A stretch of DNA of 64,000 nucleotides from Microcella pacifica (lineage in GTDB: Bacteria > Actinomycetota > Actinomycetes > Actinomycetales > Microbacteriaceae): positions 62,001 through 126,000 of the forward strand of contig NZ_VIKT02000002.1 of the NCBI RefSeq assembly GCF_009371975.2, given 5' to 3'. Position numbers and translations under genes: made by a program. Below are positions 3,448 to 4,575 of the stretch, piece after piece. The notes beneath the pieces are model-generated. The model had not been told where the DNA came from and made no database searches. It saw nothing but the letters and a program-made list of their open reading frames with translations. Within the stretch, counting starts at the first letter, position 1. Each line of letters opens with the position of its first letter.

Positions 3448-3488
3448 AGCCGTGTCCCGACCCATGACCCTGTGTGAGGAAGACCACT

Positions 3489-4103
3489 GTGACGATCGCC
3501 TCCCCCGCCCTGCCACGCCCCACCCTCGTCGACCGCGTCGTGAGCCGCAGTCTCGCGACGGACGCGGCCCTCGTCGTCGCCGGCACCGCTCTCGTCGCGA
3601 TCCTTGCCCAGGTGGCGATTCCGCTGTGGCCGGTTCCGGTCACGGGGCAGACCCTCGCCGTCCTCCTCGTCGGAGCATCCCTCGGTGCCGCACGCGGAGC
3701 GGCCTCGCTCTCGCTCTACGCTGTGCTCGGTGGGCTCGGCCTGCCCATCTACAGCGATGCGGCGTCCGGCTGGACGGTGCTCCTGGGCCCCACCGGCGGG
3801 TACATCCTCGGCTTCATCGCCTCCGCAGCGATCGTCGGCTGGGCGGCCGAGCGCCAGTGGGATCGGGGTTGGTACAAGCCCTTCGTGACCTTCATCGGCG
3901 GTTCGATCGTCGTCTTCGCCATCGGACTGCCGTGGCTCGCCGTCTCACTCGGTCAGCTCGGACTGCCGAACGACCTGGGTGCGGTCCTCGCTTCGGGCTT
4001 CGTGCCCTTCATCATCGGCGGCGTCATCAAGGCGGGGATCGCCGCGGCGCTCATGCCGCTCCTGTGGCGCATGGCCGAGAAACGCGGCCGCGCCGCGGAG
4101 TAG
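3489..4103 (+). CDS. bioY: BioY family biotin transporter, substrate-binding S component
   Basis: A 204-residue hydrophobic protein with about six predicted helices and the BioY features PLWPVPVTGQTLAVLL and GPTGGYILGF. BioY captures biotin in the membrane, usually with the energizing BioM/BioN (ECF A and T) subunits; none is nearby, so it must work alone or with a module encoded elsewhere. The GTG at 3489 is chosen over an in-frame GTG at 3474 because GAGGAAG (3476-3482) is correctly spaced for it. The gene is convergent with sufT, and the 62-bp repeat block begins 8 nt past its stop. Confidence 0.92.
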   Translation: MTIASPALPRPTLVDRVVSRSLATDAALVVAGTALVAILAQVAIPLWPVPVTGQTLAVLLVGASLGAARGAASLSLYAVLGGLGLPIYSDAASGWTVLLGPTGGYILGFIASAAIVGWAAERQWDRGWYKPFVTFIGGSIVVFAIGLPWLAVSLGQLGLPNDLGAVLASGFVPFIIGGVIKAGIAAALMPLLWRMAEKRGRAAE

Positions 4104-4111
4104 AGCGCGCC

Positions 4112-4252
4112 GGGGCTCAGATGCTGAAGCCCAACCGCCTATCGGCGGAGCGTTGGGCACTGAGAGCCCACTGGGCTCTCAGATGCTGAAGCCCAACCGC
4201 CTACCGGCGGAGCGCTCGGAATTGACGGTCCACTGGACCGTCAAATGCTGAA
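4112..4252. repeat. 62-bp tandem palindromic repeat (two full units plus one partial) at the sufT 3' end
   Basis: Units are 4191-4252, 4129-4190 and a partial 4112-4128, with an exact 62-bp period. Each full unit has a 10-bp perfect hairpin around an ACT loop (4222-4244 and 4160-4182), flanked by outer arms of 6 bp, and a CCGCC/GGCGG hairpin. Read on the minus strand, every copy contains the codons for L-G-F-S-I-stop, the true sufT C-terminus in unit 1. The stem changes between units are all compensated. Lying between convergent bioY and sufT, the block could act as a bidirectional transcription terminator. Confidence 0.9.
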
Positions 4253-4570
4253 TCCGAGCGCTCTCATCATGTCGCGGCCGTCGTCGGTGATCCGCTCAGG
4301 ACCCCACGGCGGCATCCAGACCCAGTTGATGCGGAACTGAGCGACGATGCCGTCGAGCGAGTTCGCGATCGACTCCTCGATGACGTCCGTGAGCGGGCAA
4401 CCCGCGCTCGTGAGAGTCATCGAGATGATGAGGGCGTCTGACTCCTCATCCCAGGCGAGGTCGTAGACGAGGCCCAGGTCGACGATGTTGACCCCCAGCT
4501 CGGGGTCGACGACATCCTTGAGCCCCTCCTCGACCTCGTCGAAGAGCTTCGGTTCGAGTGCAGTGGGCAT
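4241..4570 (-). CDS. sufT: SufT-like Fe-S cluster assembly factor (MIP18/DUF59 family)
   Basis: A 109-residue single-domain protein with the MIP18 signature: DPELGVNIVDLGLVYDL from residue 22 and the TSAGCPLTD motif with the conserved Cys58. Family members help load Fe-S clusters onto client proteins. It is the last gene of the suf operon, 5 nt after sufC. A TACACT hexamer lies 7 nt before the ATG and there is no Shine-Dalgarno sequence, so part of its mRNA may be leaderless. Its last codons (L-G-F-S-I-stop) are the first copy of the downstream 62-bp repeat. Confidence 0.88.
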   Translation of the reverse strand: MPTALEPKLFDEVEEGLKDVVDPELGVNIVDLGLVYDLAWDEESDALIISMTLTSAGCPLTDVIEESIANSLDGIVAQFRINWVWMPPWGPERITDDGRDMMRALGFSI

Positions 4571-4575
4571 GGCGA

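Follow-up and report, generated by a model that had tools for sequence, protein, structure and literature searches.

The MIRU of mycobacteria are actinobacterial tandem units found at gene ends, where the stop codon is duplicated or restored on insertion. The attC sites of integrons carry the ends GTTRRRY and RYYYAAC in every unit, and REP sequences can occur in genomes without a local RAYT. REP/RAYT elements are described in PMC3733652 as small dispersed palindromes downstream of genes, sometimes overlapping stop codons, and clusters of hairpins following the stop codon are proposed as terminators in PMC8355165. Template switching during DNA synthesis makes a perfect stem in one event, which explains matched changes of several bases, and is presented in PMC8794818 (Monttinen and Loytynoja 2022) as both the source and the keeper of perfect stems. 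In the titles and abstracts that we searched, where subscription journals are mostly outside coverage, none described the design reported here.

In the window (the whole 64,000-nucleotide stretch of Microcella pacifica DNA that we analysed), an array of palindromic units lies between the convergent genes bioY and sufT (Table 1). Read on the minus strand, in the sense of sufT, each unit has the order A-B-C-loop-C′-A′-D, and the period is 62 nt. Arm A comprises 11 nt at the gene and 6 nt in later units, bulge B 8 nt and inner arm C 10 nt; one base separates C′ from A′, and hairpin D has the form CCGCCG-NN-AGGCGG. Coding sequence of sufT forms the outer arm, the gene stops inside unit 1, and the repeated ATGCTGAA is the complement of its 3′ codons F-S-I. 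Unit 2 and a truncated third copy again spell LGFSI-stop, and they differ from the sufT end by synonymous changes only. Both strands fold far more strongly than shuffles (z -6.57 and -6.63). As tandem gene-end units that restore a stop codon they are like MIRU, a likeness drawn from the general description of MIRU; unlike the element here, MIRU are not known to be built as palindromes whose arms derive from the gene that they adjoin.

Table 1. Features of the bioY-sufT array (positions in the window)
Feature	Position	Strand	Description
bioY	3474..4103	+	Converges on sufT; its end lies 12 nt short of the array; PF02632, E 8.3e-36
sufT	4241..4573	-	110 aa, FeS_assembly_P; PF01883, E 4.7e-14; last codons A-L-G-F-S-I-stop within unit 1
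Unit 1 (sufT-proximal)	4197..4263	-	Covariance model R1, E 7.1e-19
Unit 1, arm A (GAGCGCTCGGA)	4253..4263	-	sufT codons; from sequence
Unit 1, bulge B (TTCAGCAT)	4245..4252	-	sufT codons F-S-I; no mirror of B in the other arm
Unit 1, inner arm C	4235..4244	-	Contains the sufT stop TGA, 4241-4243
Unit 1, triloop	4232-4234	-	AGT
Unit 1, inner arm C′	4222..4231	-	Perfect complement to C
Unit 1, outer arm A′	4210..4220	-	Perfect complement to A
Unit 1, hairpin D (CCGCCGGTAGGCGG)	4197..4210	-	Small hairpin
Unit 2	4135..4196	-	Covariance model R1, E 2.8e-18
Unit 2, A	4191-4196	-	
Unit 2, B	4183-4190	-	
Unit 2, C	4173-4182	-	
Unit 2, loop	4170-4172	-	
Unit 2, C′	4160-4169	-	
Unit 2, A′	4148-4158	-	
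Unit 2, D	4135-4148	-	
Truncated third copy (TTGGGC TTCAGCAT CTGAG)	4116..4134	-	LGFSI-stop

When positions 4129-4190 were compared with 4191-4252, 12 of 62 bases differed. Over the full 67-column units there were 18 differences: 14 in the compared arms, one in the D tetraloop and three in columns 2-4, where unit 2 has 6 nt of A only, followed by the preceding D hairpin. The 14 arm changes form seven matched pairs, with four changes per side in the inner stem and three per side in the outer stem. When 14 changes were placed at random, under a simple model in which changes are independent, at least seven compensated pairs were obtained in 0 of 200,000 simulations (maximum 4). These counts bear out the preliminary description of this DNA, which had reported two units with a 62-bp period and compensation of all seven arm changes. 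It had also placed the remaining change in a tetraloop. That sufT ends within the element, and that the repeated sequence derives from its last codons, had gone unnoticed there.

We located sufT in 59 of 60 relatives. Among 24 loci of the genus read downstream of sufT, own genome included, the element was present at 10 (decayed in G002) and not at the other 14, where an ordinary GC hairpin follows the gene (by eye). Covariance model R1, built from 13 units of 9 genomes, matched 9 of the 26 genomes of the genus clearly (E<1e-13), every one at sufT, and 11 of 26 at E<=0.1; a single clear locus is present in the window's own genome. The distribution is patchy on a tree of 26 rows, 24 from the genus and 2 outside it, with G024, G025, G014/G005 and G012/G004 lacking the element next to relatives that bear it. 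Some arrays occupy the place of the relatives' usual hairpin and others adjoin it (by eye). After removal of one 62-nt unit, G010 aligned to the empty sites of G011 (one internal 1-nt gap) and G015 (gap-free) over the 90 nt shown, and the bases just after the stop codon are common to G010 and G011. Removal of a unit raised the score in 16 of 16 comparisons (four filled by four empty genomes), scores that favour the shorter sequence through gap cost, and the weight rests on the alignments. Since removing one unit restores the empty site of the relatives, the unit is an exact addition, or an exact loss, that repeats the gene end.

Repetition of the gene end follows each locus. The last 15 nt of the locus's own sufT were repeated within 200 nt, with <=3 mismatches, at 17 of 114 parsed sufT loci. 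Four of 118 loci were unparseable, the eroded L016, L028, L029 and L071 escape the criterion, and the two loci in each of the pairs L078/L093 and L015/L148 seem to come from one genome sampled twice, which leaves about 15 distinct of the 17. Where sufT ends differ (GFSI, GFQM, GFTI, GFAI) each locus repeats its own version, and the direct repeat in L078 extends to 24 nt by eye. Some sufT loci have further peculiarities. Three-way-junction-like variants, with a second hairpin where the mirror of B would be, were seen in L033, L075, L078 and L079. In G013 (L040) bioY is separated from the far sufT-end copy by a gene at about 1124-1864 that by eye is alpha/beta-hydrolase-like, and G034 has two sufT loci with the same flanks near both contig ends (C1:10539 and C1:3463394; L077, L082), possibly an assembly overlap.

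Copies at other 3′ ends, raised as a possibility in the preliminary description, were found at unrelated genes in other Microbacteriaceae and in a Bifidobacterium-like genus. Within the family, 16 of 398 genomes in 13 of 85 genera had an R1 match (E<=0.01), and 17 of 398 in 12 of 85 genera had an R2 match (E<=0.001). R2 matches in the order sample came from 4 of 396 genomes, namely the own genome and three of one genus in another family, and in the phylum sample from the own genome alone (1 of 396); the large family, order and phylum searches ran stricter filters, at which weak matches are lost. In that other-family genus, which is Bifidobacterium-like in gene content, 19 of 40 genomes matched at E<=0.01, and some of the weak matches may be ordinary hairpins. 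Single genomes can hold many copies, with 26, 8 and 22 matches at E<=0.01 in G223, G170 and G797, respectively, and none in G101 and G270, which share a genus with G223 and G170.

Pfam names for the genes that end in a copy include citrate synthase, ribosomal protein S4, alanine dehydrogenase, a xylose-isomerase-like protein, EngA (der), EF-Tu, Cons_hypoth95 and Peptidase_C1_2, the last two presumably rsmD and pepC. Further copies lie at the ends of sugar-permease-like genes (by eye) and of one tRNA, and one in G146 lies between rimM- and trmD-like genes (names by eye); some G223 copies appear inside reading frames. Arm A is native sequence, being coding sequence of conserved genes and, in the tRNA case, the 3′ end of the tRNA; in the EF-Tu copy it begins at the stop codon and not in codons. 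A direct repeat of the gene end was present at about 8 of 18 non-sufT loci (7 by script, 1 by eye). At der (L226) the mirror arms are nested: codons upstream of those mirrored by the first arm are copied in a second, past which the gene end recurs (by eye). Downstream of alanine dehydrogenase (L306, G170:C1:2788403-2788558) a full unit is followed by three A′+D copies at 45-nt spacing, an amplification unit unlike the 62-nt one. A plain strong hairpin after a tRNA (L064, G002:C19) shares the CCAGTGG loop, which by itself is therefore no mark of the element.

A′ mirrors local sequence. For 16 chosen loci (10 of them sufT) the self score of A′ was 9.75 of 10 and the cross score 5.84, a value reached in 0 of 20,000 permutations; a model that rewards pairing had contributed to the choice of these rows. 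A set free of this bias was obtained in G170 by choosing loci by hairpin D alone, which occurs there in 10 exact copies (reversed control 0; three sisters 0). Its seven distinct A′ gave a self score of 10.71 of 12 (range 8-12), as compared with 7.67 cross and 7.29 shuffled. The same choice in G223 (17 loci) gave a weaker result (self 8.59, cross 7.48, shuffled 7.13), and D-pattern matches in other genomes (n=30, mostly not the element) scored 7.57 versus 6.68 shuffled. A sequence-free descriptor, run on 991,523 nt of the window and fetched loci, gave 17 matches, with a D-type hairpin downstream in 14 and upstream in 0; these loci are enriched for the element, and L102 and L097, the latter among the 14, look unrelated. 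The hallmark of template switching, a reverse complement of adjacent local sequence, is thus seen at the 16 chosen loci and in G170, and more weakly in G223. The mirror of B was absent in the 13 aligned units of alignment A2, and in the descriptor hits it is absent by construction.

Pairing, which the preliminary description had proposed to test, is strongly maintained across copies. In alignment A5 (24 copies) 95.8% of cells were paired and 18 of 25 pairs had changed on both sides; covariation was 0.581, versus 0.167 when shuffled and <=0.068 when slid, and G-C to C-G swaps were frequent (e.g., 7 versus 6 at columns 24/38). Uncompensated drift in relatives, which that description had named as evidence to the contrary, was seen in part: 4 of 9 sufT-proximal genus units have 1-3 non-Watson-Crick cells, and the copies of G002 and G114 are decayed.

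Such strong covariation is what an RNA structure with a function at the 3′ ends of mRNAs would leave, be it a terminator or a protection of the end, if pairing were under selection and the changes were true compensatory substitutions. The element adjoins stop codons, the unit-bearing G000, G003 and G020 lack the usual sufT-bioY hairpin (by eye), and L310 and L312 of genus g8, which look orthologous, have identical A and C stems and a B bulge that differs at about half its bases. The several hairpins directly after the stop codon resemble the clustered-hairpin terminators of PMC8355165; unlike those, the window element has no T-tract, no GC hairpin with a T run being found in 3950-4350, and one family copy lies beside a tRNA, with whose 3′ end it would pair. 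Nor does the distribution favour an RNA function, as the host genes are unrelated and the element is patchy on the tree and missing at more than half of the genus sufT loci (14 of 24). A search of Rfam with 3900-4500 gave five matches at E<=5, all far below gathering (best E 1.4), and the sole match at gathering score among 14 related loci was the tRNA.

Under selection on sense-strand RNA, G.U should be much better tolerated than A.C. Across 71 distinct copies, from the best 77 of 86 matches, we counted in the A and C stems 28 A.C, 29 G.T and 59 other non-Watson-Crick cells, and in the 48 copies with <=2 such cells 9 A.C, 8 G.T and 20 other, on covariance-model alignments of copies that are not independent. 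G.T is thus not in excess, and because A.C and G.T are equally frequent, selection on the sense RNA alone fits poorly. C stems are better preserved than A stems, and selection or later correction may be the cause. A tRNA control (30 G.T and 0 A.C in 11 tRNAs) was discarded as unfair, since ARAGORN favours G.U pairs, and a MAFFT alignment of divergent copies (A4) was misaligned and kept out of the counts. We consider a functional RNA structure unlikely as the source of the pattern; a role at RNA ends is possible, yet the pattern is explicable without it. Of the two explanations offered in the preliminary description, selection on pairing and hairpin-templated copying, the latter is better supported, because in unrelated genes the arm follows the sequence of its own locus and A.C equals G.T; the interpretation given there holds in part.

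The genome-specific modules scattered at unrelated loci in G223, G170 and G797, and the gene-end direct repeats at sufT, would also suit a transposable palindromic repeat of the REP kind, which a dedicated enzyme inserts at gene ends and which takes its arms from the target. The small dispersed palindromes downstream of genes are common to both. A search for the Y1 transposase (PF01797) was negative in all 20 genomes searched (control genomes positive 5 of 14), and no constant tetranucleotide corresponding to the GTAG/CGTC tag was seen by eye at the hairpin foot in copies from A2, G223 or G170. As to many near-identical dispersed copies, a REP trait, G223 and G797 have 26 and 22 matches, with arms that differ among loci, and the own genome has its one clear locus. 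Membership in REP/RAYT, as characterised in PMC3733652, fails on the tag and the Y1 transposase, and we hold a REP-like transposable repeat to be quite improbable. An array of integron-like attC sites or phage attachment sites is suggested by GTTGGGC/GCCCAAC in unit 2, which resembles the attC core ends, and by tandem units that repeat a gene end, as in att duplication. It is very hard to reconcile with unit 1, which lacks the motif (GCTCGGA), with arms that vary among loci, and with plasmid and phage collections, in which the element found no match. The 20 kb beside the arrays of G021 and G013, read by eye from an ORF listing, held ordinary neighbours and no visible integrase block.

The explanation that we find best, at roughly even probability, is that the 62-nt unit is a member of a family of compound palindromes that arise at gene 3′ ends via fold-back (template-switch) copying. 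That related bacteria have this design where unrelated genes end suggests copying of the arms and not their assembly mutation by mutation. An origin by DNA copying with later decay is indicated by the symmetry of the mismatches, by arms that match their own locus, by the unit as an exact addition and by the tRNA case; the differing sufT ends that are each repeated as their own version, the frequent G-C to C-G swaps and the nested arms at der also favour it. Close to a hairpin that directly follows the stop codon, DNA synthesis would quit its template and copy back along the other (or nascent) strand, giving C′ and A′ as mirrors of local bases with B looped out. It would then rejoin the original template near A, a return by which the gene end would often be rewritten and the gene left intact. 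The loop and hairpin D would be modules that other copies in the genome provide. With a first unit in place, the gene-end repeats could undergo unequal exchange, which could produce tandem arrays, and it could swap the terminal codons of sufT along with the partner arm, with decay afterwards. The matched changes between units would then stem from arms that were templated by differing gene-end versions, without seven successive compensations.

Compared with the template-switch hairpins of PMC8794818, the element is alike in a stem made from a reverse-complement copy of adjacent sequence; it differs in that it skips B, adds the conserved hairpin D, often repeats the gene end, and recurs as one design at many loci and genera. 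The unmirrored B of the aligned units counts against copying, as plain template switching would mirror B too. Also on the opposing side are the gene-end repeat at about 8 of 18 non-sufT loci, the weaker G223 result, the slight excess over shuffles of D-pattern matches that are mostly not the element, and the better-kept C stems. Within a genome the loop and D are both conserved, so something spreads them, and D calls for a force of its own, perhaps a mobile module. A further proposal, which we make tentatively and think somewhat improbable, is that an actinobacterial element class spreads by an undescribed kind of insertion that mirrors the last 10-13 bases of the target gene (skipping a short bulge) beside a constant hairpin module, often rewriting the gene end, so that entry into essential genes would be harmless.

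When every change in a stem is matched, RNA function is usually regarded as proven. The occurrence of the pattern at unrelated genes, together with strand-symmetric mismatches, makes this family a tractable bacterial test of the idea that such stems arise and persist through copying in DNA. A repeat class can occupy the ends of conserved genes such as those of EF-Tu and S4, and its arrays may preserve earlier states of the codons that end a gene.
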